Virus record (IMG/VR): IMGVR_UViG_3300038678_000034
Location: 1 to 44,256 of that record
Strand: one strand, 5' to 3'
Source of the DNA: a virus
DNA length: 44,256 bases
In this document: in pieces, positions 1,172 to 44,256 of the stretch
How positions within the stretch are numbered: position 1 is the stretch's first letter
Layout: each line of letters opens with the position of its first letter
Notes under the pieces: generated by a model
What the model was told of the DNA's origin: nothing
Database searches by the model: none
What the model saw: the letters and a program-made list of their open reading frames with translations, nothing else
Position numbers and translations under genes: made by a program

Positions 1172-1373
1172 ACAATTAAGAGTTAAATTATTAACTGATG
1201 GAATGTATAGCTTTGGTGCTGACTACATAGGGCAGGTGTTACCAGCAGTAGGTAATAATAATAATAATAATGCAGGATATGATGTGAAGTTTCCAGTTGC
1301 ACTAGGAAATGATGATACACCTAAAACTACATGGTACTATGCACCTCGTGAAGTGCAGGTGATTGATGAGTAA
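1164..1373 (+). CDS. Family B small beta protein with hexa-asparagine loop
   Basis: Second tandem family B member: LRVKLLTDGMY at the start and REVQVIDE at the end. Between the second and third predicted strands it carries six asparagines in a row (residues 31-36), encoded by six AAT codons. That trinucleotide tract is prone to slippage, so loop length may vary between isolates. It overlaps the previous gene by 8 bases and the following one by 8. Function unknown. Confidence 0.8.
   Translation: MSKQLRVKLLTDGMYSFGADYIGQVLPAVGNNNNNNAGYDVKFPVALGNDDTPKTTWYYAPREVQVIDE
1254..1271. repeat. (AAT)6 microsatellite inside a gene
   Basis: Six perfect AAT units encode Asn31-36 of the protein starting at 1164. 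Identical synonymous codons throughout point to replication slippage rather than selected amino acids. In-frame unit changes would alter only the loop length. Confidence 0.95.
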
Positions 1374-1581
1374 GCTAACATCAGCAGCAGTGGCTGCTCC
1401 TCAAGGTGTGTCTTATCCTTGTTTAATGCGAGGTACACTAACAGGGACCATTTATTTAATGAGGAATGATGCAGATGGCATCATAATACAGGCTGCTGGT
1501 GTACTGCCAGTGGGGCACAAGAGACATGACTTACAAAACTTAGAACCATTCTATGGTGTAGTAACTTTAACTCAGGAGTAG
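1366..1581 (+). CDS. Small hypothetical protein (71 aa)
   Basis: Unrecognised. The open frame extends to a TTG at 1363, but the ATG at 1366 has AGGTG 5 bases upstream and is the better start. It overlaps the previous gene by 8 bases. The sequence is beta-rich with a Tyr/Met-rich centre (GTIYLMRNDADG), an HKRHDLQNLEPFYG stretch and an acidic end. It lies directly before the DNA polymerase gene. Confidence 0.7.
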   Translation: MSKLTSAAVAAPQGVSYPCLMRGTLTGTIYLMRNDADGIIIQAAGVLPVGHKRHDLQNLEPFYGVVTLTQE

Positions 1582-1584
1582 TGT

Positions 1585-3600
1585 ATGAGAAGAGGAACAG
1601 TAGCTAGTCCTTTAGCTAAGATACCCAGAGCTATGCTTAAGGCACTGCCCTCCTTCTTATTGCAGCCTAATCCAGAGCTATATCTCTCTGATAATTTTGT
1701 AGTTGTTGATTTAGAAACTAATACAAAGGGAGATGATGGTAGTCCCATGCCATGCTGGCCTGTTAATAGTATTGTATGTGGTAGCTGGTGCCATGGATTA
1801 AGAGGTGAAGCTCATAATATATATGGTAATGAGTTAGAGATAGGGGAGTTAGTGCAAGCAGTGGAGGATGCTGACTTTGTAGTAGCACACAGTGGTAAGT
1901 TTGATATCGGGTGGCTGAAGAGAGCTGGTATTGATATGTATAAGGTGCTCCTATATGACACTATGATAGCAGAGTATTGTTTGAATGGTAATCTTAAAGC
2001 TGAGCTATCCTTAGATGCTCTATCAACTAAATACTTAGGGAAGAGTAAGGCCCCTTACATTAACATATGTATGAAGGGAGGAGTTGACCCGGGAGATATG
2101 CCAAAGAGTAAACTAATTGCCAGATGTAACTGGGATATCACACAAACTCGTGAGTTATTCTTGCAGCAGTTAGATAAGGTGTGTGACAGAGGGTTGTTGG
2201 GGCATGTGTACACCAGATGCATCCTCTCGCCTGCGTTAGCAGACATAGAGGCTAAGGGTATGCACATAGACAGTGAGCGTGTTAACGAGCGTTACAGAGA
2301 GTCTGCTGCTAAGCTAGCTGCTAGTGCTCAGGCTATAGATGAATTCACTGGTGGTATTAACCCCCGTAGTCCTAAGCAAGTGAAAGAGTTTGTCTATGAA
2401 GTACTCAAGTTTAAGCCTAAGCGTAGAGGGAGGGGAAGGCACAGTAAGCCTATATACAGCACTAAGAGTGATGACCTACTTGCTCTTAAGGCTACCACTA
2501 AACGGCAAAGAGAATTTGTTAAACTAAAGAAAGAATATGCAGGACACAATGCAGATGTAGGAAAAAACCTACTGTTCTTTCATGGAGTAGCTACTGATAA
2601 GAGAAAGGACATAGCCCCGGGTATATTCTATGCACAGTTTAATCAGTGTGTGACTGTTACTCATAGGCTTAGTAGTAGTGGTATTAAACGTACCTTCTCT
2701 CATCTTAAGGATGATAAGGGTAAGGAGATAACCAAGTCAGTACAGTTTCAGAACTTTGGCAGGAAGTTTAAGCCTCTGTTCTGTCCTTGTAAGAAGGGAT
2801 GGTCAATGGGAGAGGCTGATGGAGCACAGGTGGAGTTTAGAGTGGCTGCATTTCTTGGCCAATGCCAAGTAGCTACACAGGCTATCGTAGATAACTTAGA
2901 TGTACATGCTGACACTGCCTCACAACTACATAGTATGGACTTGGATGAGTTTAAACGTAAGCATGCAGCTCATGACCCAGAGGTGGAGGGATGGCGACAG
3001 GATGCTAAGCCAGATACATTTAAACCTCTATATGGAGGTAAAAGTGGGACTAAGGGACAGATGGCCTACTACAAATGGTTTAAGGAACACTACAGGGGGA
3101 TAGGAGAAACCCAGCAAGCATGGCTGGATGAAGCATTAACTTCCAAGAAGGTGAAGATGATACATGGATTTACTTTCTTCTTTCCTGACTGTAAGTTGCA
3201 AGGCTCCGGGTATATAACAAACAGTACTAATATTTGTAACTATCCTGTGCAGCACTTTGCTACAGCAGAGATAATACCAATAGCTGTCGCTTACATGTGG
3301 CATGCCATGAAGACAATGGAATCCTTTTTAGTTAATACTATACATGATTCTGTGATAGCTGAGCTACATCCTGATGAGCATGAACAGTTTAAGGAGTACA
3401 GCTTACATGCATTCACTACCTTAATGTATTACTACCTCAAGGAGGTGTATGGAGTGGAGTTTAATGTGCCCTTGGGCATTGGAGTTAAGATAGGGGAGCA
3501 TTGGGGAGAGGGACATGAGGTTAAGTGTGTGCCTATGGCACCATACCTTATGGATGGTATAGATTATAAAGAACTAATAACTGAATGGGTGAATGATTAA
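1585..3600 (+). CDS. DNA polymerase, family A (T7-like), with 3'-5' exonuclease
   Basis: Replicates the phage genome with its own proofreading; 671 residues, close to T7 gp5 (704). The N-terminal DnaQ-like exonuclease shows VVDLETN (D42, E44), the second motif ending KFDIGW (D107) and CNWD (D184). Polymerase motif A is EADGAQVEFR (D412), motif B is R471-K475-F479-Y483-G484, and motif C is HDS (H587, D588). The residue equivalent to E. coli Phe762 is Phe479. The start has CAGGAG 6 bases upstream. The primase, helicase, SSB-like and 5' exonuclease genes are nearby on the same strand and complete the replisome. Confidence 0.96.
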   Translation: MRRGTVASPLAKIPRAMLKALPSFLLQPNPELYLSDNFVVVDLETNTKGDDGSPMPCWPVNSIVCGSWCHGLRGEAHNIYGNELEIGELVQAVEDADFVVAHSGKFDIGWLKRAGIDMYKVLLYDTMIAEYCLNGNLKAELSLDALSTKYLGKSKAPYINICMKGGVDPGDMPKSKLIARCNWDITQTRELFLQQLDKVCDRGLLGHVYTRCILSPALADIEAKGMHIDSERVNERYRESAAKLAASAQAIDEFTGGINPRSPKQVKEFVYEVLKFKPKRRGRGRHSKPIYSTKSDDLLALKATTKRQREFVKLKKEYAGHNADVGKNLLFFHGVATDKRKDIAPGIFYAQFNQCVTVTHRLSSSGIKRTFSHLKDDKGKEITKSVQFQNFGRKFKPLFCPCKKGWSMGEADGAQVEFRVAAFLGQCQVATQAIVDNLDVHADTASQLHSMDLDEFKRKHAAHDPEVEGWRQDAKPDTFKPLYGGKSGTKGQMAYYKWFKEHYRGIGETQQAWLDEALTSKKVKMIHGFTFFFPDCKLQGSGYITNSTNICNYPVQHFATAEIIPIAVAYMWHAMKTMESFLVNTIHDSVIAELHPDEHEQFKEYSLHAFTTLMYYYLKEVYGVEFNVPLGIGVKIGEHWGEGHEVKCVPMAPYLMDGIDYKELITEWVND

Positions 3601-5519: not shown

Positions 5520-6564
5520 TAAGTTTAATAAGGAACGTGTACTAATTCTTGACAGTGATAGCAGCGTATATGCTGTTGGATTTATGACTCAAAAGAAAAC
5601 CCACTATGCTATAGATTCTACAGGCAAGATAGTATATCAAACTGAAAAGAAAATTGAATATAACAAATGGATTAAGAAACAAGCCACCCCTGATGCATAT
5701 GTCTATGACTATACAGAAGAGATAGAACCAGTGGCGTATGCCCTGTCCTCATGTAAGAAGTTTGTAGCTAATACATTAGAATTCACAGGCTGTAGCAGAG
5801 CTGTCCTCCTGCTCACTAAGGGAGGTAATTGTTTTAGGCACCACTTAGCTACCATACAGAAGTATAAAGGCAATAGAGACGTGCTGACTAAGCCTCATCA
5901 CTATGATGCTATACGTGAATACTACATGACATACTACGATGCTAAGATGTATGCTAAATGGGAAGCTGATGATGCATGCTGTATGGCATTACATCAAGGC
6001 AGTGGTGTTGATGGAGTGGAGTATGTGCTAGCAGCTATTGATAAGGACTTAGAACAGATGCCCGGGAAGCATGTCAATCCTTCTAAGAAAGATGAGGGAG
6101 TGTACATCCTGACAGAAGCAGAGGGATGGTATAACTTCTATCATCAGATGCTATGTGGTGATGCAGCTGATAATATTAAAGGACTAAAGGGTACAAGACA
6201 ATCCCCCGGGATTAGTAAAGCTAAGGCACATAAGCTATTAGATGTAGCAGAAGATAACATAGCTACTATGTGTCAGATTGTGTATGACCAGTACTTAATT
6301 AGGTATGGCTTTGATACATTCTCTTATGCTCCATGGTGGACAGACTTAGAGAAGTATCCTGACAATGAATTCTATGGTGTTAAGCCTAATGTATTAGAAG
6401 GTACAGCACTCTCTATGTTTAGGGAGAATGCAAACTTATTGTACATGCTACGTACACCAGAGGACCAGTACCTACCACACTGTGACACACTGCTAAGCAT
6501 ATGGAAAGAGTATCCTAGTGGTACAGTGGAACAATTCTTGCCAACAGAAGAGGAAGAAGAGTAA
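5506..6564 (+). CDS. 5'-3' exonuclease, FEN/PIN-like
   Basis: Likely removes RNA primers or degrades duplex ends, as T7 gp6 does. Start set at 5506 because GAGGG lies 5 bases upstream, better than an ATG at 5494. The 352 residues show the acidic motifs of FEN-type nucleases: LILDSDSS (D16, D18), KYKGNR, EADDACC, an AAIDKD strand-turn, and CGDAADNIKGLKG, which resembles the helix-hairpin-helix DNA-binding stretch with GDxxDNIxG. The C-terminus is poly-Glu. Located right after the SSB-like gene, and the stop overlaps the small membrane peptide gene. Confidence 0.88.
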   Translation: MGRTSKFNKERVLILDSDSSVYAVGFMTQKKTHYAIDSTGKIVYQTEKKIEYNKWIKKQATPDAYVYDYTEEIEPVAYALSSCKKFVANTLEFTGCSRAVLLLTKGGNCFRHHLATIQKYKGNRDVLTKPHHYDAIREYYMTYYDAKMYAKWEADDACCMALHQGSGVDGVEYVLAAIDKDLEQMPGKHVNPSKKDEGVYILTEAEGWYNFYHQMLCGDAADNIKGLKGTRQSPGISKAKAHKLLDVAEDNIATMCQIVYDQYLIRYGFDTFSYAPWWTDLEKYPDNEFYGVKPNVLEGTALSMFRENANLLYMLRTPEDQYLPHCDTLLSIWKEYPSGTVEQFLPTEEEEE

Positions 6565-6841: not shown

Positions 6842-8031
6842 GTATCATTAATAAAATAGATGATACAATCTATGACCTTGCCACCCTGAGACAGAAGGAA
6901 GTTATAGATACTGTACGTGCATACAGTACATTAACTGAAGCTGGTAAGGAGCTTGGCTTAGCAGCAAGCAATGTACATCATAGACTACAGGCAGCTATCA
7001 CAAGAGCAGCACGTAAGGGTTACTGTCCTGAGCAGGGATTAGATACTCCCTATCCTGATGGATTCTTAATGGAGAAGGTTACTATACATGAACGTGGTGG
7101 CAAAGTAACTGAGACATGGGCACGTATGTGCGCTGATAAAGAGAAAGCTCTTGCAATGCTACGCTTAGCTATAACTGCTATCTGTGAGGATGTGCAGCCA
7201 CTGGCTGCTACTTCTTCTGCTCACACTCAGTATTGTGAAGAAGACCTGATGGTTAACATCCCGGTGGGGGATGCACATATAGGTATGTTAGCATGGGGAG
7301 AAGAATGTGGGGAAGACTACGATTTGAGTATAGCTGAGAGCATTCACTGTCAGGCTATTGATATGCTTATAGCACAAGCACCTAATGCTAAGTACTGTAC
7401 CATTATAGACCTAGGTGACTGGATGCATGCTGATAACGTAATAGGTATCACCACACGTGGTGGTAATGTACTTGATATGGATGGTCGGTGGCACAAAGTA
7501 CTACGCTGTGCTATACGTATCGTTATTTATTATATCACTCAATGCTTGAAGAAGTTTGACTATGTTACCTTCCGGCCTGAGATAGGTAATCATAATGACA
7601 CCAGTGCTATTGCTACACAGGAATGGTTGTCCATTTTGTATGCAAATGAACCTCGTGTTACTATTGGGAACACTCCGGGCAATGTATACTTTTGGCAGCA
7701 TGGACTTTGCTTCTTTGGCAGTCATCACGGACACGAGATAAAGTTTGATAAGCTCCCGGGAATAATGGCAGCTAAGATAATGGATGACCATATAGAAACT
7801 AAGTATCGTAAGTTTTATTGTGGCCACATACACCACAAAACTATGAGAGCATCAGACTTCCAAACATGTGAGGTGCAGACATATCGCACCCTAGCACCAA
7901 AGGATGCCTATGCTAGTAGTCATGGGTATGTAGCTCCAAGAGATATAACAGCTGAGACATGGCATAAGAAGTATGGACATATGGGAACAGTTAATATTAA
8001 TATACCAATGATGGAGGCTAGTGATGAGTAA
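6838..8031 (+). CDS. HTH-metallophosphoesterase fusion
   Basis: Calcineurin-like phosphoesterase: GDAHIG (144-149), LGDW (192-195), GNHND (250-254), HHGH (296-299) and GHIHH (329-333) form a complete dinuclear metal site. Residues about 15-55 (RQKEVIDTVRAY, LTEAGKELGL, SNVHHRLQAAI) resemble a sigma/LuxR-type helix-turn-helix, so the enzyme may be targeted to DNA. Possible substrates include DNA 3' ends or nucleotides. It follows the exonuclease gene and overlaps its upstream neighbour by 4 bases. The catalytic family is sure; the substrate is not. Confidence 0.9.
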   Translation: MSIINKIDDTIYDLATLRQKEVIDTVRAYSTLTEAGKELGLAASNVHHRLQAAITRAARKGYCPEQGLDTPYPDGFLMEKVTIHERGGKVTETWARMCADKEKALAMLRLAITAICEDVQPLAATSSAHTQYCEEDLMVNIPVGDAHIGMLAWGEECGEDYDLSIAESIHCQAIDMLIAQAPNAKYCTIIDLGDWMHADNVIGITTRGGNVLDMDGRWHKVLRCAIRIVIYYITQCLKKFDYVTFRPEIGNHNDTSAIATQEWLSILYANEPRVTIGNTPGNVYFWQHGLCFFGSHHGHEIKFDKLPGIMAAKIMDDHIETKYRKFYCGHIHHKTMRASDFQTCEVQTYRTLAPKDAYASSHGYVAPRDITAETWHKKYGHMGTVNINIPMMEASDE

Positions 8032-13783: not shown

Positions 13784-13810
13784 GGAGGCATTAAGCCTCC
13801 CTTCTTTTAT
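13784..13810. terminator. Rho-independent terminator at the convergence of both arms
   Basis: GGAGGC (13784-13789), loop ATTAA, GCCTCC (13795-13800), followed by CTTCTTTT. It is strong on the plus strand. On the minus strand the hairpin is followed by TTATTATG, giving a weaker signal. It lies between the last rightward gene (ends 13688) and the last leftward gene (ends 13814), so it may stop both. Confidence 0.85.
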
Positions 13811-34553: not shown

Positions 34554-34777
34554 TCAAAATCTCCACCAATGTTATGAAACAATCCCCTATCATGTAGGTC
34601 AGCATCCAGACAAGGAGCAGAGAGTAAGACTCTACTCATTAGTCCTTGGCAAACTTTACAACGAACTTCAGGAGTCTTAGATGCACTGTGACGTACTTCT
34701 CTTATCTCTCCACAGGAGCATTTATAGGTATAATTAATCCCTGTATTAGCACCTTTATAATTAATTTTAAATGACAT
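34550..34777 (-). CDS. FmdB-like zinc-ribbon protein (75 aa)
   Basis: YTYKCSCG...VRCKVCQG: Cys20, Cys22, Cys40 and Cys43 fit the FmdB/CxxC zinc ribbon (Y-x-C-x-C-G...C-P/K-x-C-x). After it an acidic tail DLHDRGLFHNIGGDFE. Such ribbons are common in phage structural operons and probably bind zinc for folding or DNA contact. Overlaps the small terminase gene by 4 bases. Confidence 0.75.
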   Translation of the reverse strand: MSFKINYKGANTGINYTYKCSCGEIREVRHSASKTPEVRCKVCQGLMSRVLLSAPCLDADLHDRGLFHNIGGDFE

Positions 34778-35457
34778 TATGATACATCCTGAATGGTAGC
34801 TATAACAAAATCTAAAGTCACTGTAGTGTCTGAGAAGAATATTAAAAATTCAAAGTAATCAGTTGCAGCGACTGACAAACCTAATACTGTAACAGTATTA
34901 CCAAAGAGGGCAGCACCTACTTGTCCCTTATTAACTATATCATTTAATATAGTACCACCAGAGTTTTTGTGACGTATTAGAAATTCAAAATTAGTTCCTA
35001 TAGTTACTGTAGAGGTAGTTAATAATACAGCATTAACATTAACTCGGGTAACATCAGTAGGAACTGTTATCCTAGTAGCATCTGCACCTAGGTCTATAAA
35101 ACCATCATCATCATATATCTCAGTTTGGAATGCTACAGTATATAATGTGGCTATAGCTAAGTCTGTATCTCTACGAGCACTACCTGCTGAGTTACTACCT
35201 CCTCCCCCGGTAGGAGTAGCCCATTTAACCCCTGTAGCTTCTGCACTATCAGCAGTTAATACTTGTCCATTAGTTCCTACTGCTACTCTCTGGTCACCAG
35301 TATCATAAGACATGATGTCACCTTTAGTAGTTAAAGGAACATCCCCTGTTGGCCCGGTAGGACCTGTATCACCTGTCGCACCAGTGGCACCTGCAGGTCC
35401 CGGAGTGCCTCTACTATCAGGGTCATCAGATACATGTGTACTTCCTAATCTAGTCAT
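34777..35457 (-). CDS. Collagen-like fibre protein with TNF-like head (226 aa)
   Basis: Residues 17-40 form eight G-X-Y triplets (GTPGPAGATGATGDT...), a trimeric collagen-like stalk. Then the common phage fibre linker LTTKGDIMSYDTGDQRVAVG, TNGQVLTADSAEATGVKW, and a beta-rich C-terminus of 130 residues (TLYTVAFQTEIYDDDGFI; RVNVNAVLLTTSTVTIG). It likely is a head or tail fibre that contacts the host surface. AGAGGCATAGT precedes the ATG. Confidence 0.8.
   Translation of the reverse strand: MTRLGSTHVSDDPDSRGTPGPAGATGATGDTGPTGPTGDVPLTTKGDIMSYDTGDQRVAVGTNGQVLTADSAEATGVKWATPTGGGGSNSAGSARRDTDLAIATLYTVAFQTEIYDDDGFIDLGADATRITVPTDVTRVNVNAVLLTTSTVTIGTNFEFLIRHKNSGGTILNDIVNKGQVGAALFGNTVTVLGLSVAATDYFEFLIFFSDTTVTLDFVIATIQDVS
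35338..35409 (-). repeat. Collagen-like G-X-Y repeat in fibre gene
   Basis: Eight consecutive Gly-X-Y codons triplets encode residues 17-40 of the fibre protein at 34777-35457. The DNA is a degenerate 9-bp repeat and could vary in length by slippage. Confidence 0.8.
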
Positions 35458-37103: not shown

Positions 37104-37123
37104 TACTGTATATTTATACATGT
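37104..37123. promoter_or_regulatory. LexA-like box 1
   Basis: TACTGTATATTTATACATGT matches the E. coli SOS box consensus (TACTGTATATATATACAGTA) at 16 of 20 positions. The right half-site ACAG is ACAT. Shares its last base with box 2. Confidence 0.5.
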
Positions 37124-37142
37124 ACTGTATGTCTGTACAGTA
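37123..37142. promoter_or_regulatory. LexA-like box 2 (best match)
   Basis: TACTGTATGTCTGTACAGTA matches the SOS consensus at 17 of 20 positions with both half-sites CTGT-N8-ACAG perfect. It is a perfect inverted repeat over seven bases (TACTGTA/TACAGTA). Confidence 0.6.
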
Positions 37143-37192
37143 GACTAAATAAATTAGCACTATAATAGTTTCCAAACAACTACTTAACGTAG

Positions 37193-37212
37193 TACTGTAT
37201 AAACGAACAGTA
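37193..37212. promoter_or_regulatory. LexA-like box 3, abutting the rightward -35
   Basis: TACTGTATAAACGAACAGTA matches 16 of 20 with perfect CTGT-N8-ACAG. It ends one base before a TTGACA at 37213 and lies 10 bases before the better -35 at 37223, so a bound repressor would hinder RNA polymerase. Confidence 0.55.
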
Positions 37213-37222
37213 TTGACAGGGG

Positions 37223-37251
37223 TTGACATCAAATTGCTAGAGAGATATACT
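37223..37251 (+). promoter_or_regulatory. Strong rightward sigma70 promoter
   Basis: TTGACA (37223-37228), 17-base spacer, TATACT (37246-37251): 6 of 6 and 5 of 6 consensus with ideal spacing. A second TTGACA lies at 37213-37218. Transcription would start near 37258. No gene begins for the next 1050 bases. Confidence 0.75.
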
Positions 37252-37257
37252 GAATAC

Positions 37258-37490
37258 TCTTCCTCTTTTATTTCTTTTTAGAAATTTTTCTCCTTCTGTT
37301 TCATATTATACTATTAGATACTATTTAGTAACACACTCCTTAGAGTGTTTAGATAAACTAATATATGTATATAAATAAATATTGCATTTAGCTAGAGTAT
37401 GTAATATAATTAGTTATATAAAGTTTAGTCATAGACCTTTAGTTATAACCTCGTATGTCCTCCTTGCCCTCTTAATGAGGGCTTTCTTTT
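37258..37490 (+). ncRNA. Candidate small RNA from promoter to terminator (about 230 nt)
   Basis: The span between the strong promoter (37223-37251) and the terminator (ending 37490) has no convincing reading frame. A hairpin ACACTC-CTTA-GAGTGT (37333-37348) lies in the middle. The arrangement predicts a discrete transcript of about 230 nt. It could instead be a leader whose terminator is overcome by antitermination. No known RNA family recognised. Confidence 0.4.
37466..37490 (+). terminator. Rho-independent terminator in the control region
   Basis: GCCCTC (37466-37471), loop TTAAT, GAGGGC (37477-37482), then TTTCTTTT. Functional on the plus strand only, because the minus strand has no T-run after the hairpin. 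Confidence 0.85.
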
Positions 37491-37847
37491 GAGTTACACT
37501 CAACGTCCTTATACTTCTTAGCAGTTATCTAAGCTTTCTTTTGTAAATTCCACATTTATATGCACCAGTATTGGTTATTATTCCACACTTATAGGGACTA
37601 AATATCAATAGTAGTCAGTAGTGGTGAACATTAAAAGCTACCCACATTCCCCCGATTTATCATAATTATAATAGAAATTATTTATACGTAATGCTCTGCT
37701 ATCTGCTCCTTTGTAATCCCCCTTGTACCCCCAAATCAATACAACCAGTGCAATCATATATGAAATGAAAGGCTACCAAGATATCTCTAGCTAGGGATAA
37801 GATGGAGAAATGTTGCATTCCACTATCGTTATACCCCCCACTCTTTA

Positions 37848-37867
37848 TACTATACACTTATACAGTA
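37848..37867. promoter_or_regulatory. LexA-like box 4 (weaker)
   Basis: TACTATACACTTATACAGTA matches the SOS consensus at 16 of 20, with the left half-site CTAT in place of CTGT. It is isolated, about 640 bases from the others, and may be coincidence. Confidence 0.25.
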
Positions 37868-38212: not shown

Positions 38213-38309
38213 TTCACGGGGATTATCTTTACTATCATTCACTTGTATTAACACTATCTCAGGAGTGGTCTATTATGTAAGTACCAAGCAAATGATAAGA
38301 GTATTTCTC

Positions 38310-38468
38310 ATGACATATAAACAAATGCAGTGGGCTGGTGGACATGACTGGTTCCGTAGTGCAAGCTTAATTAATGGCAAGTTTAATGTTACTGTTAAAA
38401 ATGACATGGGTGGTGAGGATTTAATCTTCACTGATTTCGATGAGCTTTATATATGGGCGGGATACTAA
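38310..38468 (+). CDS. First gene of the rightward arm (about 52 aa)
   Basis: Start uncertain. The frame is open from 38265 (GTG) but the ATG at 38310 (MTYKQMQWAGGHDWF) is the most plausible because the WAGGHDWF motif follows. AAGAG lies 8 bases upstream. The segment AGGHDWFRSASLINGKFNVTV and LYIWAGY at the end suggests a small beta protein. An upstream AGGAG points to an ATG that is immediately followed by TAA (38275-38280). Function unknown. Confidence 0.55.
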   Translation: MTYKQMQWAGGHDWFRSASLINGKFNVTVKNDMGGEDLIFTDFDELYIWAGY

Positions 38469-38927: not shown

Positions 38928-39115
38928 AATCACTACAATTCACTAACACTATTGGAGACATCTTTCCTTTACGTGTAATGGGTAAGGGTATTCCCGGCAC
39001 TGATAGCTTTCGTTGGCTCGTGGTGCATCCTGACATGACAGTGTTGGGAGTGTATCGCTACACCAAGAATGCTTTTGCATGCGCTCGTATGATTAAACGT
39101 TTAGGGGAATTGTAA
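38924..39115 (+). CDS. Small hypothetical protein (63 aa)
   Basis: Unrecognised. LQFTNTIGDIFPLRVMGKG, RWLVVHPDMTVLGVYRY then a helix (KNAFACARMIKRLGEL). Looks like a small beta-alpha protein. GGGGAGGG precedes the ATG. Coupled to neighbours by overlap. Confidence 0.65.
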   Translation: MKSLQFTNTIGDIFPLRVMGKGIPGTDSFRWLVVHPDMTVLGVYRYTKNAFACARMIKRLGEL

Positions 39116-39531
39116 TGAATGCATTAACACAAGGTAAGAAGTTCACTGTTATATGCAGTGCATACCAACACACTGCTGATAGCCTTACTAATATGCTAGC
39201 CACTGATGAGATGGCTAAGTATTTAACAGCTCATATATTTGTTGAGTATACCCGTGTTGTGGGTGTATACCGTGGTCAAGGTGAACAATCATTCGTTATT
39301 AATACCAACTCATCTAGTGCTATTAGTAACATCACACGTTACTGTCAACACATACATAATCAAGAGTGTGTGTTAGTGAGTAACAATCAAAGACATTCAA
39401 TCAAGCTGCACTTTGAGGATGGTAGCAAGGAAGAAATAGGGCATAACTTTGGGGTGCATGGTAGTAAACCATCAGCTAAAGTAGACTCATATACTGTGCT
39501 AAATGGCAATGAATATTACGTAGTTTATTAA
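39115..39531 (+). CDS. Hypothetical protein with EQSFVI...QECVLV segments (138 aa)
   Basis: The segment GVYRGQGEQSFVI, then a helix (AISNITRYCQHIHNQ), ECVLVSNNQRHSIKLHFEDG matches a recurrent arrangement in early proteins of unrelated phages (G-x-x-E-x-S-F ... QESVL ... DG). Its role there is not known to me. AGGGGA precedes the ATG. Confidence 0.7.
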   Translation: MNALTQGKKFTVICSAYQHTADSLTNMLATDEMAKYLTAHIFVEYTRVVGVYRGQGEQSFVINTNSSSAISNITRYCQHIHNQECVLVSNNQRHSIKLHFEDGSKEEIGHNFGVHGSKPSAKVDSYTVLNGNEYYVVY

Positions 39532-43081: not shown

Positions 43082-44256
43082 ATGAATGAACGTCATATAG
43101 TAGCAGCTCTGATACAGTCTAGGAGTGCTTACGTTAGTGTGCATTCCTATCATGATGAGGGTGACTTCAGTGATATGGCGGAGCTAATTTATAAGGAGCT
43201 AGTTAAGTACTATGAAAGGGATGAAGATGCACAGTGTATGAGTACATCCTCCCTTCTCTCTAGGTTGAAGAGGTTGTATCCTAAGAGGTATGAAGGGTTT
43301 GAAAACTTTATTAAAGACATGAAGACTGTATCTGTCTCTAATATAATGGATGACTACTGTGCTATGAAAGCTGATAGCTTAGGGGAGGTGCTGGGAGGCT
43401 ACCTATTAGCAGGAGAGCATGCCAAAGCAGCTCCCTTAGTGGAGAAATACATAGCATTACAGAGTGAGGGCTTACAAGATAAGGCTGATGCTCCTATTGT
43501 ATACACTGATGCTGATGTTGATAGCTTTGCTGAGTCTTTAACTCTTGGTAATAGAATACCTATTGCACCTCGTGCCTTGAATGATATGCTAGGGGGAGGG
43601 TTAATTCCCGGTAGTCACTTGCTAGTGTATGCTCCTCCTGAAGTAGGGAAGACAGCCTTTGCTATCAACTTGGCTTACTCTACTGCATGTACTAAGAGAG
43701 CAAGAGAGGGTAGTAAGACTCTATACATAGGCAACGAGGAGGCAGCTGACATGTACTTAATGCGCTTACTCTGTCGCTTCACTCAATGGAATGAAGAGGA
43801 AGTGCAGGCTGATAGAGAGGAGGCTATGCAGCTAGCTCGTAGTAGGGGATGGAGTAATCTAATATTTGTACACCTATCCCCCGGAACAGTAGCACAGGTG
43901 CAGGCTCTAATCATAGAGCATAACCCTGATGTAGTTATCATTGACCAGATACATAATTTAATCCTTGGTAAAGGTAAGGAACCTGAGAAGACCCAGCTAT
44001 TAGAACGTTTAGCTTATGCTATGCGTATGTTTTATAGTAGGCATAAGGTGGCAGGGATTAGTATATCTCAGGCAGATGAGAAGGCCATAGGTAAGCTGTA
44101 TCTAACCATTAAGGATGTGTACTACAGTAACATAGGAGTGCAAGGACAAACAGATGCCATGATAGGCATTGGAATGAATAGAGACTATGAATTGCAAGGT
44201 AGAAGGGTGCTTAACATCACTAAGAATAAATTAGGTGGTGAACATGGCTCCTTAGT
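43082..44256 (+). CDS. DnaB-type replicative helicase, 5' part of gene split by the join
   Basis: Unwinds DNA at the fork. The frame starts at 43082 (GAAGG upstream) and runs off the window end; joined with 1-176 it gives 407 residues. Residues 1-150 are a helical N-domain. The RecA-like ATPase has Walker A APPEVGKT (184-191), in which Ala replaces the first Gly, a Glu-containing NEE at 218-220, and Walker B VVIID (284-288) followed by Q, as in DnaB. Together with the separate primase it replaces the T7 gp4 fusion. Confidence 0.93.
   Translation, partial: MNERHIVAALIQSRSAYVSVHSYHDEGDFSDMAELIYKELVKYYERDEDAQCMSTSSLLSRLKRLYPKRYEGFENFIKDMKTVSVSNIMDDYCAMKADSLGEVLGGYLLAGEHAKAAPLVEKYIALQSEGLQDKADAPIVYTDADVDSFAESLTLGNRIPIAPRALNDMLGGGLIPGSHLLVYAPPEVGKTAFAINLAYSTACTKRAREGSKTLYIGNEEAADMYLMRLLCRFTQWNEEEVQADREEAMQLARSRGWSNLIFVHLSPGTVAQVQALIIEHNPDVVIIDQIHNLILGKGKEPEKTQLLERLAYAMRMFYSRHKVAGISISQADEKAIGKLYLTIKDVYYSNIGVQGQTDAMIGIGMNRDYELQGRRVLNITKNKLGGEHGSL
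44130..44256. repeat. Terminal overlap, copy 2
   Basis: Identical to positions 1-127. Only one copy exists in the circular map; the second is an assembly artefact. Confidence 0.95.

Follow-up and report, generated by a model that had tools for sequence, protein, structure and literature searches.

A candidate right-end transcription unit in an uncultured Zobellviridae-like phage

Described phage systems and the genome under study

In phage lambda, the constitutive-looking promoter pR' gives a leader RNA of about 200 nt (the 6S RNA) that ends at the intrinsic terminator tR'; the genes follow directly after tR', and Q brings about release. In T7, whose chromosome is linear and bears direct terminal repeats, the promoter phiOR lies close to the right end; this phage uses its own RNA polymerase, no terminator stands between phiOR and the end, and the primary origin is a promoter followed by AT-rich DNA. 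At the right end of VpV262 (Zobellviridae), a promoter with a doubled TTGACA (11/12) is followed, with no gene between, by an intrinsic terminator and, about 140 bp further on, by the annotated direct terminal repeat. Some 250 bp from the ends of their records, the V. breoganii phages 1.015.O and 1.139.A carry a TTGACAGAGGTTG promoter and a C/U-rich leader with a mirror repeat.

The window (the whole stretch of DNA analysed, i.e., the 44,256 bp of IMG/VR virus record IMGVR_UViG_3300038678_000034, with 39.5% G+C) resembles VpV262 in its doubled promoter, gene-free interval and terminator, but the leader of VpV262 is a G-rich purine tract without the C/U mirror tract, and LexA-like palindromes were not seen there. 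With the two V. breoganii phages it shares promoter and leader, whereas in those phages the operator was not found, the spacing between TTGACA and TATACT is 19, and no terminator was found between promoter/leader and record end, so that the terminator is not universal. As in lambda, a promoter, a leader RNA (about 230 nt, predicted) and an intrinsic terminator succeed one another; unlike in lambda, the genes are predicted to be cut off from the unit by a chromosome end, and the protein scans (one of them covering the first 25 of 43 families) recognised no Q-like or other antiterminator gene. A position like that of phiOR, close to the end of the chromosome and apart from the early arm, holds for the annotated ends of VpV262 and is predicted for the window; T7 differs in its own polymerase and in having no terminator before the end, whereas the window has one before the predicted end.

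We consider it somewhat better than an even bet that the locus is a self-contained transcription unit at the right end of a linear, terminally repeated Zobellviridae-like chromosome, with an RNA of about 230 nt, variable cargo and an insulating terminator. As a promoter-terminator unit at the end of a phage chromosome, the element is of an ordinary kind; its leader is odd. A right-end unit of this kind was not described in the literature that we found, which also held nothing usable on transcripts of ICP2 or VpV262.

By sequence, the phage is a Zobellviridae-like podovirus, because its TerL is closest to those of the V. breoganii zobellviruses (54% identity) and of VpV262, ICP2, CVT22 and others (46-49%); its genes form two opposed arms, with DNA polymerase A, nucleases and primase on the + strand and terminase, head-tail adaptor and tail proteins on the - strand. 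No near relatives at the DNA level were found among annotated phages, the first late and first early proteins used as queries returned no related loci, and a scan of genome contigs gave distant terminase relatives in metagenome bins only and no host. Positions 1-127 and 44130-44256 are identical (127 bp), which fits circularisation by assembly, so that the physical chromosome ends are not visible in the record; these identical ends, which lie far from the predicted chromosome end, are probably an assembly overlap rather than a phage terminal repeat.

Promoter, leader, body and terminator

The candidate unit and its upstream flank contain the following features:
37104-37142, no strand: two adjoining LexA-like palindromes beside the leftward (late) promoter region; 64% of columns invariant among relatives
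37193-37212, no strand: third palindrome, TACTGTATAAACGAACAGTA, abutting the promoter, centre at about -55; invariant in 90% of columns among the four phages
37213-37251, + strand: sigma70-type promoter with doubled TTGACA, kept in L004, L010 and L021
37258-37310, + strand: C/U-rich, almost G-free 5' leader of the predicted RNA, also in V. breoganii 1.015.O and 1.139.A
37333-37348, + strand: hairpin ACACUC-CUUA-GAGUGU, by inspection
37466-37490, + strand: intrinsic terminator, predicted to act on this strand only, with equivalents in L004, L010, L021 and VpV262

The promoter consists of TTGACA (37223-37228), a 17-bp spacer and the -10 hexamer TATACT (37246-37251), scoring 11/12; a second TTGACA (37213-37218), 10 bp from the first, was the source of the start coordinate in the preliminary description. 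Across the entire 44-kb window, one sigma70-type site of at least 11/12 occurs on the + strand (37223-37251) and one on the - strand. A looser scan gave 33 sites against 49.7 in shuffled sequences, i.e., fewer than by chance, so weaker "promoters" mean little here and weight was placed only on the top match and its conservation. Judged by TTGACA and TATAAT hexamers, a spacer of 16-18 bp and a position kept in relatives, the site recurs in the same place at 10-11/12 in the three relatives holding the region (L004, L010 and L021; TerL 77-82% identical, that of L021 from a partial TerL), and the near-consensus + strand promoter proposed earlier is confirmed at the level of sequence.

The window and these relatives share one order: LexA-like palindromes, operator, doubled TTGACA, -10, C/U-rich leader, body, terminator and conserved non-coding blocks. 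In all three relatives the operator (T)ACTGTATAAA(C/G)GAACAGTA abuts TTGACA-N4-TTGACA. Invariant columns among the four phages amount to 94% in the doubled TTGACA, 90% in the operator, 49% in the leader (the most conserved transcribed part) and 12% in the body; the terminators stand at differing distances and are therefore not superposed in this alignment. The comparison shows the putative promoter, leader and terminator kept in place and the body variable.

The upstream palindromes have their own pattern. The first (37104-37123) is degenerate and the second (37123-37142, TACTGTATGTCTGTACAGTA) perfect; counted as CTGT-N8-ACAG with TACTGT...ACAGTA flanks near promoters, two perfect 12/12 LexA-type sites lie within 90 bp, and CTGTN8ACAG occurs four times in the genome against 0.56 expected. 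Palindromes of the form TACTGT-N8-ACAGTA are located at 37104-37212 and 37848-37867 in the window, at 3442, 4238, 4308 and 4362 in L004, at 3438, 4344, 4414 and 4432 in L010, and at 565, 1586, 1656 and 1674 in L021. Conserved copies flank both the late and the right-end promoters, and the protein scans (one of them over the first 25 of 43 families) revealed neither a repressor nor an integrase. They are candidate sites for possible SOS control or for another phage regulator, and a phage protein, rather than host LexA, could use them.

The terminator is a stem-loop, GCCCTC-TTAAT-GAGGGC (37466-37482; stem -10.9 kcal/mol), followed by TTTCTTTT to 37490; a T run thus trails the GC-rich hairpin on the + strand and is missing from the other, in keeping with the earlier call of a rho-independent terminator working on the same strand only. 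Besides this one at 37466 (+), the genome has two strong terminators, at 13784 (+) and 27795 (-). Its equivalents lie at 4010-3993 in L004, whose stem is identical to that of the window, 4018-3994 in L010, 1167-1143 in L021 and 3116-3135 in VpV262 (L153). The statement that no gene separates promoter and terminator also held, as 37258-37490 contains no ORF of at least 40 aa and the window's RNA no plausible ORF. No Rfam family reached its cut-off in this interval (the single low-scoring hit, RprA, is at chance level, with E=0.94 and 27.9 bits where 70 are required), no tRNA was found in the window, and no known RNA family in the region apart from tRNAs in relatives.

The unit, which combines the best + strand promoter with one of the strong terminators, is probably transcribed and probably makes a short non-coding RNA. 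Host RNA polymerase (the same protein scans, one with 25 of 43 families, recognised neither a phage RNA polymerase nor a sigma factor) would start at about 37258, and the resulting RNA of about 230 nt, C/U-rich at its 5' end, would stop at 37490, some 200 bp short of where the terminal repeat is predicted to begin.

In the window, L010, L021, L004 and the V. breoganii phages alike, the predicted transcript opens with 40-50 bases that are rich in C/U and poor in G. In the window, the leader has mirror-symmetric outer arms flanking a weak 6-bp hairpin (AUUUCU/AGAAAU). Mirror scores exceeded the maximum of dinucleotide shuffles in L004 (19 vs 14), V. breoganii (20 vs 14), the window (12 vs 11) and L010 (11 vs 10), and the score of L021 (10) was matched by 3 of 150 shuffles. 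Because the symmetry was spotted post hoc and the tracts are of low complexity, we treat it as a lead only; the mirror repeat clearly exceeds shuffles in two lineages, and an ordinary explanation is lacking. The arms of L004 and V. breoganii span 20-22 bp and share the symmetry with differing sequence, H-DNA being expected of homopyrimidine mirror arms of at least 10 bp, above chance. There is perhaps a slender chance that the block was selected to form an intramolecular DNA triplex, driven by transcriptional supercoiling near the chromosome end, that would regulate initiation, replication or concatemer processing; if true, a bacterial virus would here have a triplex element under selection.

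The mid-leader hairpin is found in the window, L010 and L021, with two compensated pairs between the last two, and is absent from L004 and the V. breoganii phages. Counterparts of the hairpin at 37333-37348 were seen by inspection in L004, L010 and L021, with differing stems and the loop CUUA, CUUAA or CUCAA. Both hairpins come from inspection and single-sequence folds. On covariation, put forward earlier as a check, the automatic consensus fold of the aligned RNAs contained zero pairs; the covarying stems and the two compensated leader pairs were found by inspection.

In three of the four phages the predicted RNA is more stably folded than its shuffled versions (z about -2.7), the exception being L004 (z = -0.1). 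This folding, the hairpin with covarying stems and the 5' end as the best conserved transcribed part would suit a trans-acting regulatory small RNA, whose single-stranded C/U-rich 5' end would pair with Shine-Dalgarno or purine-rich targets in host or phage mRNAs; we regard such a role as rather unlikely, given the value for L004, the unconserved body, the lack of an Rfam match and the fact that pairing of the leader to phage translation starts was matched or beaten by 38 of 40 shuffled leaders. An anti-Shine-Dalgarno seed, tried against 61 phage translation starts (phage targets only), did no better than shuffled leaders and was rejected.

At lengths of 100, 150 and 200 bp, the most AT-rich segment of the genome falls in the body. 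Together with the location near the chromosome end and the conservation of promoter and leader but not body, this might suggest that transcription itself matters rather than the RNA, the locus being a transcription-dependent origin or a concatemer-processing element near the genome end, similar to phiOR or the primary origin of T7. However, the body is not the extreme of AT-richness in the relatives, and the terminator would halt polymerase short of the chromosome end, so that we think this quite unlikely. GC-skew switch points fall at the arm boundaries and, being confounded by transcription direction, were not used as origin evidence.

The predicted chromosome end and the early arm

Three features lie beyond the terminator:
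37673-37690, no strand: predicted terminus of the chromosome, at about 37690, where the direct terminal repeat would begin; placed by alignment to relatives that match the terminus HMM
37718-37732, no strand: CCCCCTTGTACCCCC block, family-wide, just inside the predicted terminal repeat, by alignment
38248-38276, + strand: a further promoter candidate, TTAACA-17-TATTAT (10/12), immediately upstream of the first rightward gene and kept in L004, L010 and L021

The terminal repeats of ICBM1 were mapped with PacBio reads, and the ends of VpV262 and RIO-1 are cited as characterised (PMC6775973); that of Klyazma is annotated (PMC9960094). The annotated direct terminal repeats of VpV262, ICBM1 and Klyazma are all inside the same divergent region. 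In the family alignment adjacent columns hold the repeat starts of ICBM1 and VpV262, and the deposited records of 1.139.A, 1.077.O and GX1 end no more than about two columns away from them (columns counted by hand). A terminus-motif HMM built from cultured phages without VpV262 recovered the annotated VpV262 end (E 0.054) and matched L021 (1.5e-6), L165 (2.8e-5), L004 (1.3e-4) and, weakly, L010 (0.45). The window gave a partial, weak match, and its predicted end at about 37690, about 200 bp beyond the terminator, was placed through alignment to relatives, on the same column at which the annotated repeats of VpV262 and ICBM1 begin. Klyazma departs from this pattern, with an annotated repeat of 711 bp whose start lies about 100 bp further in. 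The family-wide motif yields a testable prediction of the physical ends of uncultured zobellviruses.

Since the predicted end falls between them, the unit and the early arm would lie at opposite ends of the injected linear molecule, the unit on the right, next to where the late arm begins, and the early arm on the left, and the terminator may keep polymerase from the concatemer junction and the early arm. The position of the annotated repeats in the divergent region and the early arm's own conserved promoter candidate favour this right-end unit; against it stand the window's weak HMM match, the offset in Klyazma, the missing terminator of the V. breoganii phages and the sister phage L165, in which rightward genes directly follow the terminator.

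The first rightward gene starts at about 38265-38312, some 800 bp past the terminator with non-coding DNA between, as the preliminary description had reported. That description had offered a stand-alone small RNA or an attenuated leader of the rightward arm; the former is supported as a short RNA unit by the conserved promoter and terminator and the folding (z = -2.7), whereas the latter found no support in this phage. An attenuated leader would hold polymerase from 37223 at 37490 until antitermination opened the rightward genes, as at lambda pR'-tR', and it does agree with the circular map order (promoter, terminator, genes) and with the sisters L165 and L170, in which a long non-coding leader with a conserved ACCAGTGCGNTTCGCTACCGC has its terminator 20-25 nt upstream of rightward genes. 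We nevertheless judge it very unlikely for the window phage, because the unit would be at the right end and the early arm, with its own promoter candidate, at the left; about 800 bp of non-coding DNA follow the terminator, and no antiterminator gene was recognised (one scan with the first 25 of 43 families). In L165, a second terminator, about 70 bp short of the terminus motif, closes the rightward genes that directly follow the first, suggesting that the right-end unit may include regulated genes in some lineages. Given the terminators just upstream of rightward genes in L165 and L170, attenuation may occur in the wider group.

The sister-lineage non-coding segment (L165 4859-5150, L170 2111-2430, L019 31-115; minus strands) carries a conserved GTGCGNTTCGCTACCGC before its terminator, which precedes a rightward gene in L165 and L170; Rfam gave no match to this segment.

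Variable cargo and further observations

The slot between promoter and terminator, which may serve as a variable cargo site, is occupied in L010 by a 31-codon ORF and in L021 by a tRNA together with a broken copy of this ORF; in the window and L004 it is without recognisable content. The ORF (MKVRYVVWVHPYFDTDGQPCFTYHESLTCWT; L010 4103-4195, minus strand) is preceded by AAGGA; its copy in L021 has an in-frame TGA where L010 has TGG. The slot features of L021 lie at 1177-1244 and 1320-1412 (minus strand), and its tRNA reaches the Rfam cut-off and was missed by ARAGORN. The tRNA and/or 31-aa ORF in the slots of L021 and L010, and their absence from the window and L004, could mean that the window retains a leftover cargo unit whose RNA is made but has no function, an explanation that we find doubtful in view of how well the window and L004 both keep their promoter, leader, hairpin and terminator. 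If transcribed, the locus would be a defined right-end unit of an uncultured Zobellviridae-like lineage, with variable cargo (tRNA, micro-ORF or bare RNA) and a conserved C/U-rich leader.

The more distant L170 has a tRNA-Asn in a longer non-coding stretch, which a terminator closes just before a gene. An RNA-like block (GTCGGGGCCACAnCACAGCCCGAAA...) is common to ICP2 (L060, about 6330-6520, minus) and VP41s3 (L064, about 7270-7480, minus); it occupies the equivalent region, on the other strand, with a terminator-like hairpin and T run at its end.

Among the window's proteins are an S-adenosylmethionine lyase (PF23780, 2.3e-20; 39115-39531, + strand), an early protein of anti-restriction type, and, elsewhere, a Tad2-like (PF11195) anti-Thoeris domain. 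The late protein at 34777-35457 (- strand) has matches to a short segment of many viral contigs that are otherwise unrelated (loci L027-L054), with multiple matches inside some single contigs, which suggests that it carries a modular or repeated domain.
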